Virus record (IMG/VR): IMGVR_UViG_3300018424_000129
Location: 1 to 31,080 of that record
Source: a virus
Length of the DNA: 31,080 bases
Reading direction: 5' to 3' (one strand)
The translations under genes were made by a program, and so were the position numbers. Position 1 is the stretch's first letter; each line of letters starts with the position of its first letter. The notes under the pieces were generated by a model. It was not told where the DNA came from. It saw nothing but the letters and a program-made list of their open reading frames with translations, and did no database searches. Positions 1,108-28,159 of the stretch are shown piece after piece.

Positions 1108-2208
1108 ATGTTTGATGCATCTATACATGATTATGATTATTTGAACTATGGTCTTTCTGACATTGTTCTTTCCTGTGTTCAAAAATATTATTCAAGTGTG
1201 GATGATTTATCGACTTTACATTTAGAAGTCCCATATAAAAAAATTGGTGAACTTGTAAAGTTAGTTGGTAAAGATCTTGCAGATACTAATTTTTATGAGA
1301 AGTTTGATGAGATTGTTGCAAGATACATCCTTCCAGAGTTGGATAGTGATATTCTTATACAAAAGTTTGGTAATATTAGAATAACTGTCCCCAATCAGGA
1401 TAAGAACGGAACAGTTCTTCCATTTCATCAGGGAAGATGGGTTGGCAATGGTCTGGGGTTGAGAACTATTTGGTTACCATTTACTGAGTGTTACGATAGT
1501 AATTCTCTTCAAATAATTCATTTAGATGCAAGTAGATTGATTACCAAACAGTGTTTGGAGCAGGATTGGTCATATGAAAAATTTCAAGAAGCGTGTAATC
1601 AAATCTGTAAACCAGTGAATATTGATAAGAGTCAATTTCTTTTGTTTACCCAAGAACATATTCATGGTGCTGTTCCTAATAGAACAAATAAGACTCGGGT
1701 TAGTATTGACGTAAGAATTTTACTCAGAGGACAACAACCACATCGTAAATGGCCAGGGGCATACTTTAGGATTCCTGGGGAGAGTATCATTCATTCTCGT
1801 AATGTTGCAATTCATGATGATGAGAACGTGGTGATGTACGCTGAATATGATGGATTTAAGACAAAACATATTGATTTATATTTTCAAACACTAGTAGTTA
1901 GAGAATATTGTGTTAGAATGGGGTATACATTCCCACATCAAACTGGTGACAATGAGGGTAGAAATCATAACTACCTTGAGTATTTGATTGATAAGGGTAA
2001 TGTAAATCATATCTTGATGTTTAGTATTTTCTCTCTTCCTGATAAAAAAGAAAGGAGACAATATATTATGGATCTTGCACTAAGTAGGGGCGTAAAGTTA
2101 CATTTTGCAAACGAAGAGTTTGTATTGCATAATCAGGATATGCTAGATAGAATAGAATATCTAAGAAATTTTACATCTGATTGGAGCAATCCTGCATATG
2201 AGAATTAA
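1108..2208 (+). CDS. fused PhyH/SpoChoClust-type 2OG oxygenase and SpoChoClust-type protein
   Basis: Two domains are visible. Residues about 90-205 look like a phytanoyl-type 2OG oxygenase: LPFHQGRW (H107), GLRTIWLPF, then EHIHGAVPN (H186) and TRVSIDVR (R197). Residues about 243-355 match, from memory, the 'sporadic carbohydrate cluster protein, LIC12192 family': YDGFKTKHIDLYFQTLVVRE, then MFSIFSLPDKKERRQYIM, then KLHFANEEFVL. In bacteria the two families are encoded as separate neighbours within surface-polysaccharide gene clusters; here they appear fused. The iron-motif position after H107 is Gly (H-Q-G), where Asp is expected, so the domain may be inactive or may bind halide as non-haem iron halogenases do. 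The start is ATG one base after the preceding stop. Family naming is recall; the residues are seen. Confidence 0.75.
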   Translation: MFDASIHDYDYLNYGLSDIVLSCVQKYYSSVDDLSTLHLEVPYKKIGELVKLVGKDLADTNFYEKFDEIVARYILPELDSDILIQKFGNIRITVPNQDKNGTVLPFHQGRWVGNGLGLRTIWLPFTECYDSNSLQIIHLDASRLITKQCLEQDWSYEKFQEACNQICKPVNIDKSQFLLFTQEHIHGAVPNRTNKTRVSIDVRILLRGQQPHRKWPGAYFRIPGESIIHSRNVAIHDDENVVMYAEYDGFKTKHIDLYFQTLVVREYCVRMGYTFPHQTGDNEGRNHNYLEYLIDKGNVNHILMFSIFSLPDKKERRQYIMDLALSRGVKLHFANEEFVLHNQDMLDRIEYLRNFTSDWSNPAYEN

Positions 2209-8301: not shown

Positions 8302-11300
8302 GTGATCAACATCTACGTTGACACCCTTAAAGGTTCCACCAACTCCTTCAACGTCGGGGAGACCCACTTCACTTGGGAGCACCGCCACCGTGGTCGTGAC
8401 TACGGTAAAGCGAAGCAGGTTCTTACTCAGTTGGATTCCAAGTACGTTCGTTGTGCTTGGTGGGAGAACGTGTCTACTCGTGATGACAAGGATCATCACC
8501 ATGACACCATCATCCATGAATGGTTGATGACTCTTCCTGGTGTCAAGAAGATTGGTCAGGAGACTTTTGAGTTTGATCTCAAGTTCTATACCATTGAGAT
8601 CCTTGTCCAGATGATGGAGGAGAAGTTCTTCTCTGGTAAGCAGAAGGAGTACAGTCAGTTCAAACCACGTCCTTATCAACAGCAATTCCTTGAGAAGATT
8701 GCCTCCGCATGGGACGTTAGTAATGAGTTTTTGCTGTTCGCTAAGTGCCGTGCAGGTAAGTCTGCAATGGTCCTAAAGCACATCGTAGATAGTGGTTATA
8801 AGGTATCCCTGGTTTGCTCCCGTCAGAGGTCCCCTGAGGGGTCTTGGAAGGCGGATTCTAACGAGTTCTTCCCTACTGTCAAATACATCTCTGTCCAGGA
8901 TCCTGGTTGGGAGACCTATCTTGAGTATTGGAAGGAGCGTGATGTCAATGTAGTTCTTTGGGGCACCGTCCAGAGTTTTATCAAGCGTCTGGATAAGATC
9001 AGCAACGTTGACTTCATTGCTTTTGATGAAGCACACATCGGTGGCACTGCGGACCAGTTCGTTCAACTCCGCAATGCAATTGACACTCGCATCTGCTACA
9101 TCTCTGGCACTGCACACAAACTCTGCTGGATGTTCCCCGATGAGCGCCAAAAGTTTGTCTATACCTATTTTGATGAGCAACTGGATGTTCAACGCGACGT
9201 GTTCAAGCGTCCCAAGATGAACGTTGCTTTTGCTAAGTATCAGACTTCTGCCTATCAGGAGATCTTTGGTGATGATCCTGATGCCATGAAGAACATCTTC
9301 ACTATGAAGGGTGATGAGTTCTTGCATGATTCCCTGGTGCGTGAGTTCATTCACAACTACTTTGGTCCTCAGCGTAATATCCGTATCGGTGATCGTCTGC
9401 TCAAGGGCACCTATCACATGATGGCACTGCCCAGTGTCAAAGCATGTCATGCATTCCAGAAGTTGGTTGAGTGCTATTACCCCGCATTGGTGGTTACTTC
9501 CGATGCTAAGAAGGATCAAGATGACATCAATCGCTTCCTAGATGAGCACGCAAAAGCACTGATCATCACTCAGTCTGCAAATGTTCTTGGCGTCACTGCT
9601 AAGAAGATCGATACCGTCATCAATTGCCGTGGTGGTGAGTCGATTGAGTTTTGGACTCAATTCGCATTCCGTGGTGGTTCTGGTGAACATGACTGGTGGG
9701 TGATTGATTTTGATGCCCAGCGATGCCTCCGTGCCATTCACACGGCATTCCAACTGGCATGTGACAACAATCCCACCCTGTCTCAATTCAGTGTTGTTGA
9801 CTTCACCAACATCCATGAATGGAATGATGGGTTCCAGGAACTGTCTAAAGAAGCATTTGAGGATGCTCTGGCAGCAGATGTTGAGAGCAGCATCTCAACT
9901 GTGACCAGCATTGTTGAGTCTTTGGATCTCAGTGGAGTTGGAGATTTTGTTTTTAATCTCAAGTCTTCTCTGACTACTGTGATGAAGGAGTCTCAGTTGA
10001 ATGACAATGGTGCCAACAACAAAAGTTGTGTCGTCATGGAGACTGAGCGTGTAAAAAAGTCTGATGACCTTGACACCCTGAAGAAGCAGACTGTCAAGGC
10101 ACTGCTTGAGTCCATTCCTCTGACCATGTTCTATATCATCCGTAGTGGTCAAAACGTATATTCCATTAAGGATGTGATTGGTTCTGAGATTTATCCTTCT
10201 GTCACTGGTGATAATGAGGGTATTCTCTCACAAGTAATCAATCTCAACCCCCACAGCATGGAGTTGTTGACCCGTCGTATTGGATTGGTATCTAACAGTA
10301 TCCAGAAGAGTATGAGGGAGTCTGTGTCTGAGACTATCAACGGTCTCTCGGTCTCCTCTGCTATTCAGCAATCCATTCCTACATCTCTCTTTGATATTAT
10401 GATCAATGATTGTAAGGACATGTCCCGAACCTACATGTTTGGTGACCCCAGTGGTTCTCACACTGCTCGTCTTCTTGAGCGTGGTCTTGATCCCAGCAAT
10501 CTCACCGTGTGGGAGAGTTGCGATAGTCACCGCAATCGTGTAAAATATGTGGATACTAGTGTCAAAGTGGTCGATTCCCATCCCAACATGAAGTTCACTG
10601 CCATTCTCGCCAACCCCCCATACAACGACCCCACTAAGAAGGCGCGGAACAACAAACTATGGACCAAGATTGTTGAGCAGCATCTTGAGTTGCTTGCTCC
10701 TGGTGGAGATATGTGTGAGGTGACTCCTGCATCTGTGCTTGGTAACACTGGTAAGGGTAAGAAGTTCCTCCAACTCTTCTCTACGGTTTATAATCTCAAA
10801 CTCATTGACTATACTGCAGATGATTACTTCACTGAAGGTGTTGCTATCTGCCGTTGGCACCTTGTGAATGAACCTTATCAGGGCAAGACTGTTGTCATCA
10901 CTCACGATGGTTCTTTTACTTGGGATTTGCGTGATGGTCTGCCTCTGGTTGGAGATGCTGCACTTAAGCATTCTATTCTCAATAAGATTGCCAACTCAAA
11001 GCATCCTCGTATTCCTCTGAAGATGGGTCAGGCGATTGCTACTGAGGACTATACTCCCAATGGCAAGTATGAGATCTATAAGTCTGCAGATAAAGTGGAG
11101 CGTACTGATGTTGTTCCTACCACTGGTGATGTTTTGAAGTTTATTGTTCCCTTCTCCTCCACCTACAAGAAGAGGTTTATCTCTAATGGATATGTTGGTA
11201 TGCTTAATTGCTGGTGCCCTATTACTTCGCAAGAAGAAGGGAATCGTCTTAGTGCGATCTTTGATAATCCGACTATCAAGTTTTTTGTGGACAATTATAA

Positions 11301-11433
11301 AAAGACTGCAGGATTTACTCCTGCTATTAAAAATGCGGAAGTACCTGACATCACGAACTATCAGGATCTATCTAACCAATTTGGTTTTACCAGCGACGAG
11401 GTAGAATATCTGGAGCGTTACAATGCCATCTAA
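8302..11433 (+). CDS. SF2 helicase and N6-adenine DNA methyltransferase fusion, 1043 aa
   Basis: The helicase half comes first: a Q-tip-like RPYQQQFLEKI (123-133), Walker A CRAGKS (149-154), DEAH (242-245), SGTAH (268-272), and a motif VI-like FAFRGGSGEHDWW (454-466). After a linker of about 200 residues comes a methyltransferase: motif I FGDPSGSHTARLL (713-725) and motif IV NPPY (771-774), characteristic of N6-adenine enzymes. The last 150 or so residues resemble the C-terminal DNA-recognition part of Eco57I-like enzymes. This order recalls single-chain type ISP or type III-like restriction systems. No clear nuclease is seen; an FDLK at 91-94 is only a weak PD-(D/E)XK candidate. GTG is the only supported start, since a stop lies in frame at 8272. 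G+C looks higher than in the flanking oxygenase genes (one sampled line 50% against 32%). Confidence 0.85.
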   Translation: MINIYVDTLKGSTNSFNVGETHFTWEHRHRGRDYGKAKQVLTQLDSKYVRCAWWENVSTRDDKDHHHDTIIHEWLMTLPGVKKIGQETFEFDLKFYTIEILVQMMEEKFFSGKQKEYSQFKPRPYQQQFLEKIASAWDVSNEFLLFAKCRAGKSAMVLKHIVDSGYKVSLVCSRQRSPEGSWKADSNEFFPTVKYISVQDPGWETYLEYWKERDVNVVLWGTVQSFIKRLDKISNVDFIAFDEAHIGGTADQFVQLRNAIDTRICYISGTAHKLCWMFPDERQKFVYTYFDEQLDVQRDVFKRPKMNVAFAKYQTSAYQEIFGDDPDAMKNIFTMKGDEFLHDSLVREFIHNYFGPQRNIRIGDRLLKGTYHMMALPSVKACHAFQKLVECYYPALVVTSDAKKDQDDINRFLDEHAKALIITQSANVLGVTAKKIDTVINCRGGESIEFWTQFAFRGGSGEHDWWVIDFDAQRCLRAIHTAFQLACDNNPTLSQFSVVDFTNIHEWNDGFQELSKEAFEDALAADVESSISTVTSIVESLDLSGVGDFVFNLKSSLTTVMKESQLNDNGANNKSCVVMETERVKKSDDLDTLKKQTVKALLESIPLTMFYIIRSGQNVYSIKDVIGSEIYPSVTGDNEGILSQVINLNPHSMELLTRRIGLVSNSIQKSMRESVSETINGLSVSSAIQQSIPTSLFDIMINDCKDMSRTYMFGDPSGSHTARLLERGLDPSNLTVWESCDSHRNRVKYVDTSVKVVDSHPNMKFTAILANPPYNDPTKKARNNKLWTKIVEQHLELLAPGGDMCEVTPASVLGNTGKGKKFLQLFSTVYNLKLIDYTADDYFTEGVAICRWHLVNEPYQGKTVVITHDGSFTWDLRDGLPLVGDAALKHSILNKIANSKHPRIPLKMGQAIATEDYTPNGKYEIYKSADKVERTDVVPTTGDVLKFIVPFSSTYKKRFISNGYVGMLNCWCPITSQEEGNRLSAIFDNPTIKFFVDNYKKTAGFTPAIKNAEVPDITNYQDLSNQFGFTSDEVEYLERYNAI

Positions 11434-11839
11434 GAACAATCACAACAAACTTCATGGGTCTACTCTTGATCGCTCTGATGAGAGGATCAAACAGACCCAA
11501 GAGGTTTTTACTCCTCCTGATTTGATCAACCAGATGATTCAGGAGATTCCAATTGAGAACTTGAAGAATCCAAACTCTAGGTTTATGGATAACTGTGCTG
11601 GTGATGGTAACTTCATTGTCTGTCTTTATGAAGAATTGAAGAAGTACCACAGCGAACAGCATGTGATTGACAACATGCTATATGCTGTTGAACTGATGGA
11701 AGATAATCATAAAGAGATGTGTAGGAGACTTGACATTCCTACGGATCATCCACACTATGTCTGTGCAGATGCTCTTACATACCACTATCGATTCGATGGT
11801 ACAGATGGACCAGTGACACTGGACCAATTCTTGAATTGA
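11423..11839 (+). CDS. short N6-methyltransferase-like protein lacking the catalytic motif, 138 aa
   Basis: Residues 26-34 (QEVFTPPDL) resemble the region before motif I in type I/IIG methyltransferases, and 56-64 (DNCAGDGNF) is a good SAM-binding motif I. The chain ends with CADALTYHYRF...LDQFLN just where the NPPY/F motif IV should begin, so it cannot methylate alone by the known mechanism. The end is clean, with TGA at 11837-11839 followed at once by a terminator, so this looks like a stable short gene and not random decay. It overlaps the helicase/methyltransferase gene by 11 bases. It may be a subunit, a SAM-binding regulator or a remnant. Confidence 0.75.
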   Translation: MPSKNNHNKLHGSTLDRSDERIKQTQEVFTPPDLINQMIQEIPIENLKNPNSRFMDNCAGDGNFIVCLYEELKKYHSEQHVIDNMLYAVELMEDNHKEMCRRLDIPTDHPHYVCADALTYHYRFDGTDGPVTLDQFLN

Positions 11840-11842
11840 CAC

Positions 11843-11867
11843 AAAGACCCCTGCTAGGGGTCTTTTT
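11843..11867 (+). terminator. intrinsic terminator after the short methyltransferase gene
   Basis: AAAGACCCC (11843-11851), loop TGCTA, GGGGTCTTT (11857-11865), with a T run to 11867. It starts 3 bases after the stop codon and ends the first helicase/methyltransferase transcript. Confidence 0.92.
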
Positions 11868-11877
11868 GGTGTATAAT
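11868..11877 (+). promoter_or_regulatory. promoter-like box GGTGTATAAT before the second helicase
   Basis: This is identical in ten bases to the box at 8266-8275 and is again directly behind a terminator. TATAAT is at 11872-11877. A start near 11884 would put the ATG at 11890 only about 6 bases into the RNA, so translation may be nearly leaderless. The TTGACA at 11836 is 30 bases away and does not pair with it. Confidence 0.6.
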
Positions 11878-11889
11878 ATCTCTATCGCT

Positions 11890-13128
11890 ATGACACCTAT
11901 GCAACTTCGCCCTCACCAGTCTGAGTCCCTTGATGTTATGTCTCAAGTGGACAAGGGCATCATTGTGGTTCCGACAGGTGGTGGCAAGACCCTTATTGCC
12001 ATCATGGATGCCAAGCGTCAGTTTGAGTCTGGGGACAAGACTATTGTGGTTGTTGCTCCTCGTCTCATGCTTGCTCGACAGTTGTCTGCCGAGTTTACTG
12101 AGCACATCATGGATGCCTCTGTGATGCATGTTCACTCTGGTAATGATCTTCCATACTTCACAACTACTAAACCCAACGAGATTTATTCTTGGTGTTATCA
12201 TACTGGGGGTAATAAGTTGATCGTTACCACTTATCATTCCCTGCATCGTATTCAAGAAGCAGGTATTGTTGTTGACTCTATCTATTTTGATGAAGCGCAC
12301 AATTCTGTCAAAAAGAACTTTTTTGATTCCACACGGCATTTCTCTAATACTAGCAACCGCTGCTACTTCTTCACTGCTACTCCTAAGTATTCTTCTACTT
12401 ACAAAAAGCACGGGATGAATGACACCAGCGTGTATGGTCAGATCATTTACAATGTCCCTGCTCCCCGTCTAATTAGTAACGGTTCTATCCTTCCCCCTAA
12501 GATCAATGCTATTCCCATTGGTTCCTTCCGTGAGAAGGGTGAGGAAGCAGCAGAACGTGACTGTATGACACTTCTGGATACTTTGTACAATGAAGAGCAC
12601 ATGGAGAAGGTTCTGATTGCTGCTCCTAATACAAAGGTGATGATCCGTATGCTTGCCACTACTTCTTTTATGGAGGATGTGCAATCCATGGGGTATGACC
12701 TTCTTTGGATCACCAGTAAGCACGGTGCGTTCCTTAACGACAAGAAGATTACCCGCGAACAGTTCTTCAACCTTGTACGTGAGTTTGGTGCAGATCCCGA
12801 CAAGAAGTTCATTGTTTTGCACTACTCCATTTTGAGTGAGGGTATCTCTGTTCCTGGTTTGACTTCCCTGGTGCTTATGCGTCAGATGAATGTCATTGAG
12901 ATGTGTCAATCTGTTGGGCGTGTCATTCGCCTTCATTTGGATGACATCAAGAGGATTCAGGATGGATCTCTCACCCCTGGCAATCTTCAGGACTATACCA
13001 AATCTTTTGGTTTGGTTCATGTTCCCGTCTACAGCAACGTTGGTATCTCAACAGTCAAACGTCTTCAGAATGTTGTTGACACAGTATTTGTTCAAGGTCA
13101 ACCCGCTATCTCCACTATCAAACGATGA
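11890..13128 (+). CDS. SF2 DEAH-type DNA helicase, 412 aa
   Basis: Helicase motifs are in order: QLRPHQ (5-10), Walker A PTGGGKT (28-34), DEAH (134-137), TATP (162-165) and motif VI QSVGRVIR (340-347). The length is close to UvsW-type phage helicases, although UvsW itself is usually longer, so I do not assign the symbol. It would move on or unwind DNA with ATP, perhaps in recombination, replication restart or with the nearby methyltransferase. The ATG at 11890 is chosen over the upstream TTG at 11836, because the latter lies inside the previous gene and would translate through the terminator. It overlaps the next gene by ATGA. Confidence 0.88.
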   Translation: MTPMQLRPHQSESLDVMSQVDKGIIVVPTGGGKTLIAIMDAKRQFESGDKTIVVVAPRLMLARQLSAEFTEHIMDASVMHVHSGNDLPYFTTTKPNEIYSWCYHTGGNKLIVTTYHSLHRIQEAGIVVDSIYFDEAHNSVKKNFFDSTRHFSNTSNRCYFFTATPKYSSTYKKHGMNDTSVYGQIIYNVPAPRLISNGSILPPKINAIPIGSFREKGEEAAERDCMTLLDTLYNEEHMEKVLIAAPNTKVMIRMLATTSFMEDVQSMGYDLLWITSKHGAFLNDKKITREQFFNLVREFGADPDKKFIVLHYSILSEGISVPGLTSLVLMRQMNVIEMCQSVGRVIRLHLDDIKRIQDGSLTPGNLQDYTKSFGLVHVPVYSNVGISTVKRLQNVVDTVFVQGQPAISTIKR

Positions 13129-14195: not shown

Positions 14196-14358
14196 ACTAA
14201 AGCATCAACGTCTCCAGGCATGGTTGCGTGAGCACAAGTGTGACGATATTGAGTATCTTGGTAATAAACAAGGTGAACATTGGTATCGTGTTGGAGAATA
14301 CGAGATAACTGCTGATCAGTTTGAAGACATTGAATTTGTTGGATATGTCGATGATTGA
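14176..14358 (+). CDS. hypothetical protein, 60 aa
   Basis: No family recognised. It starts MKISQTELKHQRLQAWLREH and ends EFVGYVDD. The ATG at 14176 is chosen over the ATG at 14170 because the GAGG at 14163-14166 is 9 bases from the former and only 3 from the latter. Its GYVDD end overlaps the MIEE start of the next oxygenase by 8 bases, a junction repeated at 18421. Confidence 0.68.
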   Translation: MKISQTELKHQRLQAWLREHKCDDIEYLGNKQGEHWYRVGEYEITADQFEDIEFVGYVDD

Positions 14359-14845
14359 AGAATTTTTTGTATCTGAAAAGATAGTTGCATATTGCAAGTC
14401 TTTACTTAAACTTGCACTAACATCCCCTGAAATCTTTAAAGATAAAGTGGATAGTAGTTTAAGTCCGAATTGCTTTGCGACTACAAATCTGCTACAATTT
14501 CCACATGCATCTATCTTTTATAACTATATTGATGCGTTGAGAATAAAATGTGAAGAATTAATTAATATCAACTTAGAGTATACTTATTTGCACCTAGTAG
14601 ATTACTCTAATGGTGGAACAATGAGTGAGCACCAGCACGATCATAATGAAGATTATAGTTTTATCCTATATCTTAATACTTGTGAGGACGGTGCTACAGT
14701 TTTAACATTAAGAGAACCTTATAAAGTGCTACCTGTTACAAATAAGGTGCTATTATTCTCCTCGTACATCTCCCATATGTCAGAGTATTCTGATACCAAG
14801 AAGGTATTGGTGGGTGGACTTAAAGTAAAGCAAAAGGAGTCCTGA
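14351..14845 (+). CDS. 2OG-Fe(II) oxygenase-like protein, 164 aa
   Basis: SEHQHDHNEDYSFILYLN (H94, H96, D97, H98) followed by FSSYISHMS (H142) and KKVLVGGL fits the iron-binding core of a 2OG oxygenase. The cluster allows several iron-ligand readings; aligned with the other oxygenases here, the pair before the hydrophobic strand reads H-x-H (H94/H96) or H96-x-H98. No clear Arg for 2-oxoglutarate is seen; K150/K151 sit at that place. The ATG at 14351 is preferred to a longer start inside the previous gene. The next gene follows directly with an AAGGAGT ribosome site. Substrate unknown. Confidence 0.68.
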   Translation: MIEEFFVSEKIVAYCKSLLKLALTSPEIFKDKVDSSLSPNCFATTNLLQFPHASIFYNYIDALRIKCEELININLEYTYLHLVDYSNGGTMSEHQHDHNEDYSFILYLNTCEDGATVLTLREPYKVLPVTNKVLLFSSYISHMSEYSDTKKVLVGGLKVKQKES

Positions 14846-15558: not shown

Positions 15559-16377
15559 ATGTTAAAAGTACCACACGAAATTCAATTACACTTAACTCAC
15601 TCATGTAATCTTACATGTGAGGGTTGTACCCATTACATGAATCAAGGACACTCTGGTTCTGTTAGTATTGAAGAGGCGGATGAGTGGTTCACTGCTTGGA
15701 GTAGACGGATTGCTCCAGAGAGAGTCACTCTCATGGGTGGAGAACCGTCTCTGCATAAAGACCTGACAAAGTTTGTGTATTTGACTAGAAGGAAGTGGAG
15801 ATATTCTCAAATTGATATTGTATCTAATGGATTCTTTTTGGACAGGCATCCAGACCTTTGGAAGGCACTGATTGATACCAACACAACTCTTGGTGTGTCT
15901 GTTCACTCTGATGGGGATCCAGAGTATAGGAAGAAGTTTGAACCAATCTACGCATTGATGAAGAACTGGATTGCTAAAGGTGCTCCAGTAGAAATGAGAC
16001 CATCTATTATCCACTGGATTCGACAGTATAAGGGATTTGGTGATAAGATGGAACCATATGAAGATAATGATCCCAAAAGTAGTTGGAAGATTTGTGTATC
16101 TAAAATGTGTGTGCAACTCCATGAGGGTAAACTCTGGAAGTGTCCTGCATTGGCGTATCTTCCCATGCAAGCAGACAAATATAATCTATCGGATAAATGG
16201 AATCCATATCTAAAGTATACTCCTCTTAGTCATGATTGTAGTAAAGAAGAATTGAAAGATTTCTTCACTCGTAGAGAAGAGTCTTTTTGCAAAATGTGTC
16301 CTGCTAAAGAGGACTATTTTACCCCAGAGAATCCTTTGCTACCAGTAAGTTATTGGAAGAAGAAATATGACACTTAA
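15559..16377 (+). CDS. radical SAM protein with Cys-rich C-terminus (paralog 1), 272 aa
   Basis: The radical SAM cluster motif CNLTCEGC (C16, C20, C23) is followed by LMGGEPSLHKDL (GGEP 60-63) for SAM binding. Additional Cys groups lie toward the end: KICVSKMCVQLHEGKLWKCP and SFCKMCPAK, reminiscent of SPASM/twitch domains that hold extra Fe-S clusters. Radical SAM enzymes generate a 5'-deoxyadenosyl radical for C-H chemistry. A closely similar copy lies at 19431. The gene overlaps the following oxygenase by 11 bases. The host must supply Fe-S assembly. The reaction is unknown. Confidence 0.88.
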   Translation: MLKVPHEIQLHLTHSCNLTCEGCTHYMNQGHSGSVSIEEADEWFTAWSRRIAPERVTLMGGEPSLHKDLTKFVYLTRRKWRYSQIDIVSNGFFLDRHPDLWKALIDTNTTLGVSVHSDGDPEYRKKFEPIYALMKNWIAKGAPVEMRPSIIHWIRQYKGFGDKMEPYEDNDPKSSWKICVSKMCVQLHEGKLWKCPALAYLPMQADKYNLSDKWNPYLKYTPLSHDCSKEELKDFFTRREESFCKMCPAKEDYFTPENPLLPVSYWKKKYDT

Positions 16378-18945: not shown

Positions 18946-19447
18946 TAACTACCTGGATCCAGATGATTTTAATAGAATCCGTCTTTATTTTGAAGGTAAA
19001 TTAGATGATGGAACAATAGAAAATTCTTGCAATTGGCATTTTGTTCCAGGGTGTGCTCAGATTGGGGATGGGCACTATCATTTTTCATCATACATTCATT
19101 CAATGTTTGAAGTTCGCATTCCAAGAGCGTTTGAATTACTAAAACCATTGATTGAGAGGACAAATATGTCTTCTATTGCTAGAATCAAAGCGAATTGTAT
19201 GATAAGAACTGAAAAATTAAAGGTAATGATGGATGGATTCCATGATGACTATCCTCACACATTAACAACAGGAATCTATTATATTAATACTAATGATGGA
19301 TACACTTTGTTTGAGGATGGAACAAAGTGTGATAGTGTTGCTAATAGATTTTGTATATTCCCGTGTGGGATAAAACATACTGGCACAACATGTACAACAA
19401 CAGACCGTAGACTGTTGATTAATTTTAATTATGCAAGTTACGACTAA
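18929..19447 (+). CDS. 2OG-Fe(II) oxygenase-like protein (tandem copy B), 172 aa
   Basis: DGFHDDYPHTLTTGIYYINT gives H105-x-D107, KHTGTTC gives H150, and RRLLINF gives R160/R161. ATG 18929 (MIQIIDNYLDPDD) is chosen over longer in-frame starts because it aligns with the start of copy A. Long DNA identities with copy A, around 19290-19350, indicate a duplication. It overlaps both neighbours by 17 bases. The middle has diverged most, so the two may act on different substrates. Confidence 0.78.
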   Translation: MIQIIDNYLDPDDFNRIRLYFEGKLDDGTIENSCNWHFVPGCAQIGDGHYHFSSYIHSMFEVRIPRAFELLKPLIERTNMSSIARIKANCMIRTEKLKVMMDGFHDDYPHTLTTGIYYINTNDGYTLFEDGTKCDSVANRFCIFPCGIKHTGTTCTTTDRRLLINFNYASYD

Positions 19448-20282
19448 ACAGATAGAGTTGCACGTTACCCACGCATGTAATTTTACATGTGAGGGTTGTT
19501 CGCATTATTCTAATCATGGACATTCTGGTAACTTATCTTTAGAAACTGCTAGAGAGTGGCTATATACATGGGGTCAACGTATTGTCCCTGAAACATTTGT
19601 TATACTTGGTGGAGAACCTACTTTAAATAAAGATCTAACCGATATAGTTTATTTGGTTAGAATGATATATCCTGATCCGTCTGTACAAATTGATTTAGTA
19701 TCTAACGCTAGTTTTTTACACAATCATCCGAGACTACCAAAAGCATTAATAGCAACCCAGACAAATTTAGCAATATCTATTCACAGCACCAAACACAAGG
19801 ATTATGTAAGACGATTTAAAAAAGGTTATCAACTTGCCAAATCATGGAGACATGAACTTGGGGTGCATGTGGAATTCTGGGACTTTACTAACACTCACTG
19901 GACACCTCAATACAAGGGATTTGGTAGTGGGATGATGCCTTATAAGGATGGTAATCCTCGTCAGAGTTGGGAGAAGTGTGTGTCAAAACATGCTTTACAA
20001 ATACACGAAGGGAAGTTATGGAAGTGTCCATCACTTGCATATCTTCCAATGCAAGCAAACAAATACAATTTAAGTCAGGATTGGGATTATTATCTAAAAT
20101 ATGAACCATTGACCTCAGATTGTAGTGATCAAGAACTTGAAGAGTTCCTGAATAGACAGGATGAGTCCTTTTGCTCTATGTGTCCAGCAAATAAAGTAGA
20201 ACCATATATCAAACAAGACCCAACTTTACCCGTTAGTTATTGGGAGAAGCACTATGATAACCTGGGGGATTTCAGCGAATAG
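19431..20282 (+). CDS. radical SAM protein with Cys-rich C-terminus (paralog 2), 283 aa
   Basis: CNFTCEGC (C16, C20, C23), LGGEPTLNKDL, and the late Cys groups KCVSKHALQIHEGKLWKCP and SFCSMCPANK repeat the plan of the protein at 15559. The second group differs in one Cys (SKHAL against SKMCV), so the number of cluster ligands may differ. The 'HEGKLWKCPALAYLPMQA' region is nearly shared. It overlaps the carbamoyltransferase gene by 29 bases. Probably a separate substrate or step from paralog 1. Confidence 0.87.
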   Translation: MQVTTKQIELHVTHACNFTCEGCSHYSNHGHSGNLSLETAREWLYTWGQRIVPETFVILGGEPTLNKDLTDIVYLVRMIYPDPSVQIDLVSNASFLHNHPRLPKALIATQTNLAISIHSTKHKDYVRRFKKGYQLAKSWRHELGVHVEFWDFTNTHWTPQYKGFGSGMMPYKDGNPRQSWEKCVSKHALQIHEGKLWKCPSLAYLPMQANKYNLSQDWDYYLKYEPLTSDCSDQELEEFLNRQDESFCSMCPANKVEPYIKQDPTLPVSYWEKHYDNLGDFSE

Positions 20283-21678
20283 TCACAATGCTGCTCTAGC
20301 AGTATTCTCTAATAACAATCTTGTTTTTGCTAGTGAGAGCGAACGTTTCAGTGGTTTAAAAAATGATCCAGACATATGTGAGGGACTGTTGTCTCATGCA
20401 ATGATGTATGGAGAACCTGGTTTAATTTGTTGGTATGAGGATCCATTTAAAAAAAGACTACGGCAAGTGATGGCGGGTCAGGGACCATTTGTTTATAACT
20501 TTACAAAGTATTTTAACTGTAGGCACAAATTTATAAACCATCACTACAGTCATGCATGTGCTGGTTACTATACAAGTAAGTTTAGAAGGTCTGCAATTGT
20601 AGTAATAGATGCTATTGGTGAATTTAAAACTGCTAGTATTTGGGAAGCAAATGGTCCAAATCTTCGACTGAGATGGCAATTAAACTATCCTAACAGTATT
20701 GGATTGTGGTATTCTGCTATGACTCAGAGATGTGGTTTTAAACCAAATGAAGAAGAGTACATTCTTATGGCATTGTCTGCGTTTGGGGACAAAAATAAAC
20801 TAAAGAATGATATATTGTCCGAGTTGATCGACAGAGATTTTAACTGTAAGATGAACTTCCACAGGGGATGTTCTGACTGGAAACCAGAAGAATCAATTGA
20901 AGATATTGCTGCAGCAACACAAGAAGTTTATGAGATATTATTTAATAACATATTGAGATTGGCGAGTGAATTGGTTTCTACCAATAACCTAACTCTGGTT
21001 GGTGGATGTGCATTGAATTGCGTAGCAAATAGACATGCATATGATCATTTTAAAAATGTTTGGATTATCCCTGCTCCAGGAGATGCAGGGTCTGCTATTG
21101 GTGCAGTCTTAGCACATAAAAAAGTAAAAGTTCCATTTACCCCTTATCTTGGATATAAAATTATTCAAAAAGCAAACAATATGTCAATTGTTGACCACTT
21201 AAAAGAACATAAGGTATGTGGTCTTGCAAGAGGTAGAGCAGAATTTGGTCCCAGAGCACTGGGTGCAAGAAGTTTGATTGCAGATCCAATGCAAAGAGGA
21301 ATTAAAGATAAAGTAAATGAGATAAAGAAGAGAGATCCTTTCAGACCATTCTCTCCCACAGTTCCAATAGAATATGCTGCAAAGTATTTTGATATGCATG
21401 ATGATTTGGTTGAGAGTCCATATATGCAACATGCTGTAAGATGTAAGACACCAGAATTATTTCCTGGTGTTGTACATGTAGATGGAACTAGTAGGGTTCA
21501 AACAGTTAAGAAGTCAGATGCTCCTAGATTGCATGATCTTCTTATGCGGTGGGGAAAGGTATCTGGTCATCCAGTTCTTCTCAATACAAGTTTAAACATC
21601 AAAGGAGAACCAATATTAAATGATGAGACCGACTGTGCAAGGTGGTCTAGAATGCATAACATACGAATATTCTCATGA
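20254..21678 (+). CDS. NodU/CmcH-type carbamoyltransferase, 474 aa
   Basis: The N-terminal half has ISANSHNAALAVF, INHHYSHACAGYY (H96, H97, H100, the HHxxHA metal motif shared with Kae1/TobZ) and VVIDAIGEF (D119). Later come LVGGCALNCVANRHAY and the C-terminal domain GRAEFGPRALGARSLIADP and HPVLLNTSLNIKGEPI. The family moves a carbamoyl group from carbamoyl phosphate, through carbamoyl-AMP, to a hydroxyl of a sugar or antibiotic. At 474 residues it is shorter than bacterial relatives of about 570-600, but all domains appear present. It follows radical SAM paralog 2 and overlaps the SGNH gene by ATGA. Confidence 0.9.
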   Translation: MITWGISANSHNAALAVFSNNNLVFASESERFSGLKNDPDICEGLLSHAMMYGEPGLICWYEDPFKKRLRQVMAGQGPFVYNFTKYFNCRHKFINHHYSHACAGYYTSKFRRSAIVVIDAIGEFKTASIWEANGPNLRLRWQLNYPNSIGLWYSAMTQRCGFKPNEEEYILMALSAFGDKNKLKNDILSELIDRDFNCKMNFHRGCSDWKPEESIEDIAAATQEVYEILFNNILRLASELVSTNNLTLVGGCALNCVANRHAYDHFKNVWIIPAPGDAGSAIGAVLAHKKVKVPFTPYLGYKIIQKANNMSIVDHLKEHKVCGLARGRAEFGPRALGARSLIADPMQRGIKDKVNEIKKRDPFRPFSPTVPIEYAAKYFDMHDDLVESPYMQHAVRCKTPELFPGVVHVDGTSRVQTVKKSDAPRLHDLLMRWGKVSGHPVLLNTSLNIKGEPILNDETDCARWSRMHNIRIFS

Positions 21679-27001: not shown

Positions 27002-28159
27002 ATGAATCAAAAATTGACAGAGGACAATTATATAATTGTCCCTAACTTTATATCATCAGCAAGAGCAACAGAATTAGCACAAAAGTTTAAAGAATACACT
27101 GAGAGGTATGATTTATCATCAGACCCTCAGGTTCCAGGATCGGATGCAAAGTTCGATTACATACCATTTGTAGAATTGTTGGTAGAGAAGACCACCACAG
27201 TGTCACAACTGATTGGGGAGTCTGTTTTACCAACATATTCTTATGCAAGAATATACAAAGAGGGTAATGAACTCCCTGCACATGTAGATAAACCTCAGTG
27301 TGAGATCTCTCTTACTGTAAATTTGGATTGTAGTGAGATATGGAACATCTGGATTGAGTCTCCAGATGGTAGGAGGAATGAGGTATCTTTATGTCCAGGC
27401 GATGCCATGCTTTATCTTGGTATGGTTGGGAGACATGGAAGAGAACCATTTGAAGGTGAGTCATGCACTCAAGTATTCTTGCATTATGTGAGGACAAACG
27501 GACCATACTTTAAGTATTATTTTGATAAAGATCATCGTTACGCTGATGATAAAGTGAAGGCCAAAACAACCCCAATAATTAATGCTACACCAAGTAGTGA
27601 GTCACCACTGTCAAAATATATCAAGGTATATGATAACGTTCTTGATATGGACGATTGTAATTTAATTCTTGGTGAGTATTCTAATGCTAATGAATGGGCA
27701 TCAGCAATGACTGGTCAAGGTGTTGAGAATAGAGAAGTTCGCAATTGTGATACTATTCCTATCTCAAATCAGGAGATTTTGGAAGCGAATATTGATGTGA
27801 GGAAACAAATAGACTCTATGCTATTCAAAAAGGTAAACAGCATAGCACAGAGATATATCTCAGACTTCCCATCATGCTTCCTTAAATCTGATAGTGGTTA
27901 TGACTTGTTGAGGTATGAGGTTGGTGGTTATTATGGTCAACATACTGATAGTTTTAAAGAACAAATGAGGACCATATCAATCTCAATTAACTTAAATGAT
28001 GATTATGTTGGTGGTAACATGGCATTCTTTGATAGGGAGATACAGATAAGAGGTGGGATGGGTTCTGCCATTGTATTCCCATCTAACTTCATGTATCCAC
28101 ATGAGATCATGCCCGTTGAAGAGGGAACACGATATTCCATTGTGACTTGGTTGACTTGA
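27002..28159 (+). CDS. two-domain 2OG-Fe(II) oxygenase, 385 aa
   Basis: The C-terminal domain is a full prolyl-4-hydroxylase-like unit: VGGYYGQHTDSFKEQMRTIS (H314-x-D316), FPSNFMYPHEIMPVEEGTRY (H367, R377). The N-terminal domain has LPAHVDKPQCEISLTVNL (H94-x-D96) and a Gly-Asp loop (PGDAMLYLG) with GRHGREPF as a possible distal His, a second oxygenase fold that is less complete. Such double-domain proteins may hydroxylate long protein repeats, with the first domain in substrate binding. It is the last gene of the fiber block, so fiber or collar proteins are possible substrates (inference). Confidence 0.82.
   Translation: MNQKLTEDNYIIVPNFISSARATELAQKFKEYTERYDLSSDPQVPGSDAKFDYIPFVELLVEKTTTVSQLIGESVLPTYSYARIYKEGNELPAHVDKPQCEISLTVNLDCSEIWNIWIESPDGRRNEVSLCPGDAMLYLGMVGRHGREPFEGESCTQVFLHYVRTNGPYFKYYFDKDHRYADDKVKAKTTPIINATPSSESPLSKYIKVYDNVLDMDDCNLILGEYSNANEWASAMTGQGVENREVRNCDTIPISNQEILEANIDVRKQIDSMLFKKVNSIAQRYISDFPSCFLKSDSGYDLLRYEVGGYYGQHTDSFKEQMRTISISINLNDDYVGGNMAFFDREIQIRGGMGSAIVFPSNFMYPHEIMPVEEGTRYSIVTWLT

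Follow-up and report, generated by a model that had tools for sequence, protein, structure and literature searches.

According to the available parts of three papers, Gly or Ala replaces the Asp or Glu of the iron site in Fe(II)/2OG halogenases and a halide fills its place (PMC12346261, PMC8407142, PMC13244439), and the available part of another describes HXG/A as the filter in a search for nucleotide halogenases (PMC11186838). The replacement is insufficient by itself in the cases covered by these partial texts: prolyl 4-hydroxylase D414A/G is not a halogenase, nor is a working hydroxylase left once its Asp is replaced (PMC2767507), and a single swap in a BesD homologue did not suffice for halogenation (PMC13244439). 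Cyanophages offer precedents for halogenation in the flavin-dependent enzyme VirX1 of cyanophage Syn10 (PMC8407142, in part) and in the tryptophan-halogenase-like genes of 20 of 153 cyanophages (PMC10452541, in part), both of them flavin enzymes whose chemistry is unrelated to that considered below. 2OG enzymes are likewise common in cyanophages, where they include 2OG-Fe(II) oxygenases and a core protein with a PhyH domain, which the available part of the source explains by action on 2OG levels (PMC3037559).

In a literature search covering mostly papers available without subscription, the papers listed for phage Fe/2OG halogenases dealt with flavin halogenases or were unrelated, and searches found no report of halogenated glycans in phage infection and no paper on the sporadic carbohydrate cluster or LIC12192, a name derived from Leptospira. 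The two bacterial protein families of that cluster, SpoChoClust_2 (TIGR04324) and SpoChoClust_1/LIC12192 (TIGR04323), are the closest relatives of the protein described here.

The window, a 31,080-nt stretch of DNA from a virus (IMG/VR record IMGVR_UViG_3300018424_000129), contains a 366-aa ORF without internal stop in which the initial annotation had recognised both families joined in a single polypeptide (Table 1). A search of the whole protein against NCBIfam with hmmscan bore this out, matching TIGR04324 over residues 17-204 (88.1 bits, E 6.8e-25) and TIGR04323 over residues 249-351 (59.0 bits, E 4.1e-16) in one frame, the former below its curated cut-off of 150 bits and the latter above its cut-off of 55 bits. 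The halves scanned singly scored 89.5 bits (TIGR04324) and 61.9 bits (TIGR04323); the C-terminal half thus matches the LIC12192 model significantly, and its proposed identity stands. Both models were also matched by seven of seven divergent relatives, with TIGR04324 scores of 76-95 bits, all below 150, and TIGR04323 scores of 28-61 bits, above 55 in two of the seven and lowest in a clade C member at 28 bits. The Pfam PhyH model (PF05721) was sub-threshold in the window protein (14.6-16 bits, E 0.041; gathering score 22 bits), and PHROGs contained no family for it. The fusion and the family identities of its two parts are accordingly regarded as virtually certain.

Table 1. Features of the window relevant to the fusion gene.
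Feature	Coordinates	Strand	Basis
Fusion ORF, 366 aa	1108..2208	+	Both SpoChoClust models matched in one frame
N domain, ~residues 1-222, predicted PhyH-fold Fe(II)/2OG, SpoChoClust_2-related	1108..1773	+	TIGR04324 88.1 bits; model; PDB matches
C domain, ~residues 241-353, SpoChoClust_1/LIC12192, predicted serine-recombinase-like fold	1828..2166	+	TIGR04323 59-62 bits; model; VIA
H107-Q108-G109 codons, H-x-D motif position, Gly for Asp	1426..1434	+	HQG in 34/34 phage rows
H186 codon, putative distal iron-binding His	1663..1665	+	Invariant in phage alignment; role from PhyH alignment
R197 codon, putative 2OG-binding Arg of TRxSxDxR motif	1696..1698	+	Invariant in phage alignment; role from PhyH alignment
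Adjacent gene upstream, 2OG-Fe(II) oxygenase family, 179 aa	567..1106	+	PF13759, phrog_81
Tail fibre gene downstream, 1938 aa	2416..8232	+	phrog_529
NodU-type carbamoyltransferase	20254..21678	+	PF02543/PF16861, phrog_1601

In bacteria the two families are encoded as separate neighbours, as had been supposed. Among 386 Cyanobacteriota genomes, TIGR04323 was found at 15 places, of which seven weak ones (L257-L263, below 28 bits) were excluded from the locus count, and at all eight good loci the gene lies directly after a separate SpoChoClust_2 gene, in another frame and with the ends overlapping. Similarly, all six TIGR04324 genes above the cut-off in 398 Pseudomonadota genomes have a separate, overlapping SpoChoClust_1 gene directly downstream, and at those of these loci that were read by eye the pair is preceded by a DegT-type aminotransferase and followed by a methyltransferase. 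No full-length fusion was detected with the phage profile in the 784 genomes together, and genome contigs scanned with the alignment of phage proteins yielded no relative. Bacteria therefore carry two overlapping genes where phages carry one protein. The phage N domain shares with bacterial SpoChoClust_2 a PhyH-type domain, matched significantly over 188 positions, and the partnership with SpoChoClust_1, but differs in being fused and in scoring below the curated cut-off; the C domain, although above the cut-off of its own family in the window protein, is part of a larger protein, whereas the family consists of free proteins of ~140-170 aa. One contig classed as viral (L285) carries a bacterial-type pair of separate genes with H-S-D that matches a proteobacterial locus at 93% across the query, and is probably bacterial or prophage sequence. 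In two cyanobacterial SpoChoClust_2 proteins (L254, L255), the Arg of the TRxS motif that binds 2OG is replaced by His. Two PhyH-like proteins (L249, L272) have C-terminal parts that by eye resemble Rieske iron-sulphur domains (CPH...CPxH), the latter adjoining an apparent polysaccharide transporter, also by eye.

Among viruses, the fusion is carried by ~136 distinct IMG/VR contigs, as tallied from the scan listings, which fall into three divergent clades (A, B and C) with identities to the window protein from 78% down to 27%. When the query was the first alignment or the entire protein, only two contigs were recovered, because the patterns fell in variable parts; core fragments used as queries recovered 80, 10, 33 and, once more, 80 loci. 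Complete ORFs in the relatives, of ~364-384 aa, are without exception full-length fusions. At 129 loci, the C domain was present in the same ORF in 131 of 138 N-domain ORFs, a set that takes in some contigs twice, and the other seven comprise six truncated where the contig or locus stops and one in the broken second copy of a tandem pair (L111). Seven clade C contigs (L115, L116, L118, L119, L122, L123 and L124) carry two tandem fusion genes, both with HQG. Ratios of dN/dS were 0.05-0.12 in five pairs, and the fusion gene is under purifying selection. In contrast to the PhyH/2OG proteins of cyanophages, as far as the available part of PMC3037559 describes them, no member of the family was matched in catalogued phages, tblastn with the window protein and four relatives matching none of 50,697 records, from which records near the window may have been omitted; the window protein also matched none of 72,556 plasmid records. 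The hosts are nevertheless likely to be cyanobacteria at least in part, since one clade B contig (L090) carries psbA and the transaldolase, tail fibre and tRNA-Leu of the window resemble those of cyanophages. A search for T4 gp23 (PF07068) in 20 viral records gave no match, and the controls were blank as well.

The main departure of the phage proteins from their bacterial relatives lies in the iron-site motif of the N domain. All 34 aligned phage rows have H-Q-G where the 22 cellular rows have H-x-D or H-x-E, namely H-x-D in all 11 SpoChoClust_2 rows and H-x-D or H-x-E in all 11 rows of other PhyH proteins. The rows for this alignment and the corresponding tree were chosen after excluding L266, L267 and L269, whose scores marked them as near copies of L265/L268, and weak PhyH loci such as L249, L272, L276-L284 and L293. 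HQG was present in 135 of the 138 phage ORFs described above, the remaining three being cut or broken. As the first queries had included the motif, a scan with a query lacking it was also run, and of the resulting 79 ORFs, which again take in some contigs twice, 77 had the C domain and 76 had HQG; the remaining three are short, lie at the ends of contigs and start past the motif. The alignment is gapless at the motif and a flanking Gly is aligned in most bacterial rows, and for this reason the change from Asp to Gly in the phage copies is read as a substitution. In a tree built without the G109 column, the phage rows grouped together (97/100), apart from the clade of bacterial SpoChoClust_2 (100/99), with long branches flagged, so that a single origin of the change suffices. 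H107, H186, R197 and the flanking glycines are invariant across the clades, down to 27-40% identity to the window protein. The phage proteins further differ from bacterial SpoChoClust_2 at R91 and D201, where the latter have Ser and Asn. D201, the sole invariant Asp or Glu of the phage N domain, was weighed as a substitute iron ligand because of this Asn, and is not an obvious stand-in, as PtlH and all 11 rows of other PhyH proteins combine its counterpart with H-x-D/E. On these alignments, the iron site of the N domain very probably lacks a carboxylate.

A structure model from the 34-row alignment (pLDDT 91.9, pTM 0.89) supports a PhyH fold for the N domain. By VIA, it matched PtlH best (Z 14.9, rmsd 3.3, 207 aligned), with PHYHD1 (3obz) also matched (Z 12.8, rmsd 4.3, 202 aligned), and in Foldseek against the PDB the best matches were to the halogenase domain of CurA (E 2.2e-7), with SyrB2 at rank 22 and many oxygenases among the matches. 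This likeness of modelled folds does not tell a halogenase from a hydroxylase. Sequence comparisons were weaker: the family profile against PDB sequences gave at best an E of 0.018 (PtlH), too weak to use, the chlorinating-enzyme model TIGR01762 had no match at E <= 1 in the window protein, and one of seven relatives matched it at E 0.005 (16 bits against a cut-off of 226). With the Fe(II)/2OG halogenases SyrB2, CurA Hal, WelO5, BesD and AdaV the phage protein thus shares the overall fold and a two-His site without carboxylate, but it differs in having no match to their sequence families, in being phage-borne and in being fused to SpoChoClust_1. The halogenase pattern of HxG/A for HxD/E with the distal His kept is present in the phage fusions, and the HQG motif constitutes a strong lead to a halogenase rather than proof of one, because a D-to-G swap alone does not make a halogenase.

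Modelled alone (pLDDT 87.1, pTM 0.82), the C domain is predicted to have the fold of a serine-recombinase catalytic domain. Serine recombinases or their relatives fill the first 30 rows of the VIA matches (best Z 11.6, rmsd 3.4, 110 aligned), the next unrelated row having a Z of 6.5, and Foldseek matched serine recombinases with an E of 5.6e-5. At the sequence level, hhalign of the domain with seven recombinases gave a probability of 0.6%, and the best match of its profile to PDB sequences was too weak (E 0.035). D248, S309 and D312 were placed by eye at the positions of the recombinase Ser and two Arg, and these catalytic residues appear to have been lost; S306, R317 and E336 are invariant in the phage C domains. 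A bacterial LIC12192-family protein (L255, 1441-1872, minus strand) had a weak match to Pox_F16 (E 7e-4, below the cut-off), and poxvirus F16 is a predicted inactive serine recombinase according to the available part of PMC11980589.

A possible explanation for these features, and the best of those considered even if held with somewhat less than even confidence, is that the fusion is a two-domain phage enzyme with a halide-binding iron site and a dead C domain, which acts on a sugar or on a substrate linked to one. In the course of infection, the fusion enzyme would modify this substrate chemically: Cl- or Br- would bind the iron site left open by Gly, the ferryl would abstract a hydrogen atom, and, as SyrB2, CurA, WelO5 and BesD exemplify, the substrate radical would rebound with the halide. 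Having the recombinase fold but no catalysis of its own, the C domain may hold the substrate in position or lend stability to the oxygenase, and such service to the oxygenase is proposed as the reason for the overlap of the bacterial genes and for their fusion in phages. The product would be a modified surface glycan or glycosylated structure. That a halogen, or another anion, is transferred is itself a tentative proposition, and the fully specified version is unlikely as a whole, namely that several lineages of uncultivated phages, cyanophages included, encode an Fe(II)/2OG halogenase in which a D-to-G PhyH domain fused to a dead recombinase domain chlorinates or brominates a surface-glycan sugar.

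It is also unlikely, though the strongest of the alternatives, that the protein is an Fe/2OG hydroxylase, desaturase or epimerase acting on a phage or host sugar, with the Gly being no halide switch and the iron bound by two His and water or by a carboxylate that the substrate or another part of the protein provides. Oxygenases make up most of the structural neighbours, bacterial SpoChoClust_2 retains H-x-D, and two-His iron sites occur in other enzymes. Against this, the sole invariant spare acid, D201, is ordinary in PhyH proteins with H-x-D, and prolyl 4-hydroxylase with its Asp replaced is not a working hydroxylase (PMC2767507, available part). The assignment of the N-terminal half to the 2OG oxygenases thus holds in its family match, but hydroxylation should not be assumed, because the carboxylate ligand of the bacterial relatives is absent and the TIGR04324 score is below the cut-off.

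The gene neighbourhoods bear on the substrate. In clade B, the fusion of L090 has a DegT aminotransferase and a NodU-type carbamoyltransferase directly upstream, while a nucleotide-sugar epimerase lies downstream along with radical SAM genes, the same epimerase family lying two genes upstream of the fusion in L093; in clade C, a glycosyltransferase-family gene lies two genes downstream in L121 and L103. The window has its own carbamoyltransferase 18 kb from the fusion gene, and across 20 fusion-bearing viral records such genes were present in all 11 of clade A, two of three of clade B and none of six of clade C, counts that cover contigs with the fusion only. The sugar context put forward in the initial annotation remains plausible and is strengthened by the sugar genes beside the clade B and C copies and by the carbamoyltransferase of the window, as is the action of both domains on one substrate by the overlapping bacterial genes and the phage fusion; overall, the protein probably acts in a sugar pathway. 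A protein substrate, such as a receptor of the host or the tail fibre encoded next to the fusion, is improbable and is kept in play because the window gene adjoins a 2OG oxygenase gene on one side and the 1938-aa tail fibre gene on the other, with no sugar genes beside it. A PF13759-type gene is also upstream of the fusion in two close relatives (L002, L003), and downstream ORFs of near-equal length occur in L052 (1942 aa) and L014 (1939 aa), a resemblance by length only. This reading sits poorly with the aminotransferase, carbamoyltransferase, epimerase and glycosyltransferase genes beside the clade B and C copies and with the apparent DegT aminotransferase, identified by eye, ahead of the proteobacterial homologues.

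The window contains two further 2OG-Fe(II) oxygenase-like genes, one sub-threshold (14321-14845) and one with ferrochelatase-family matches (27002-28159), and radical SAM genes at 15559-16377 and 19431-20282. A 1043-aa ORF with a GTG start (8302-11433) matches phrog_22930 (unknown), a helicase family and, in its C-terminal part, a DNA methyltransferase family; a second helicase comes next (11836-13128).

More improbable still is that the N domain is catalytically dead and the fusion a binding or sequestering protein, as might be supposed from the loss of the iron-binding Asp and from a partner domain that apparently lacks the catalytic residues of its own fold; yet both His, the Arg and the flanking glycines have been kept across all clades under the low dN/dS reported above, whereas uneven loss of the ligands is what one would expect of a dead enzyme. 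Finally, an origin of the fusion in misassembly or bacterial contamination can be dismissed, even though all members are metagenomic and no catalogued phage record matches, since every complete relative among ~136 contigs from many samples is fused, no full-length fusion was detected in the 784 Cyanobacteriota and Pseudomonadota genomes, and psbA lies near a clade B copy.

Should the halide-binding reading of the fusion protein hold, it would represent a second, unrelated viral route to carbon-halogen bonds and would suggest that halogenated glycans feature in phage infection. Even with other chemistry, these phages present a natural, clade-wide D-to-G experiment with bacterial relatives of the H-x-D hydroxylase type for comparison, and the hitherto unexplained LIC12192 family gains a predicted serine-recombinase-like fold and a candidate role with an obligate oxygenase partner.
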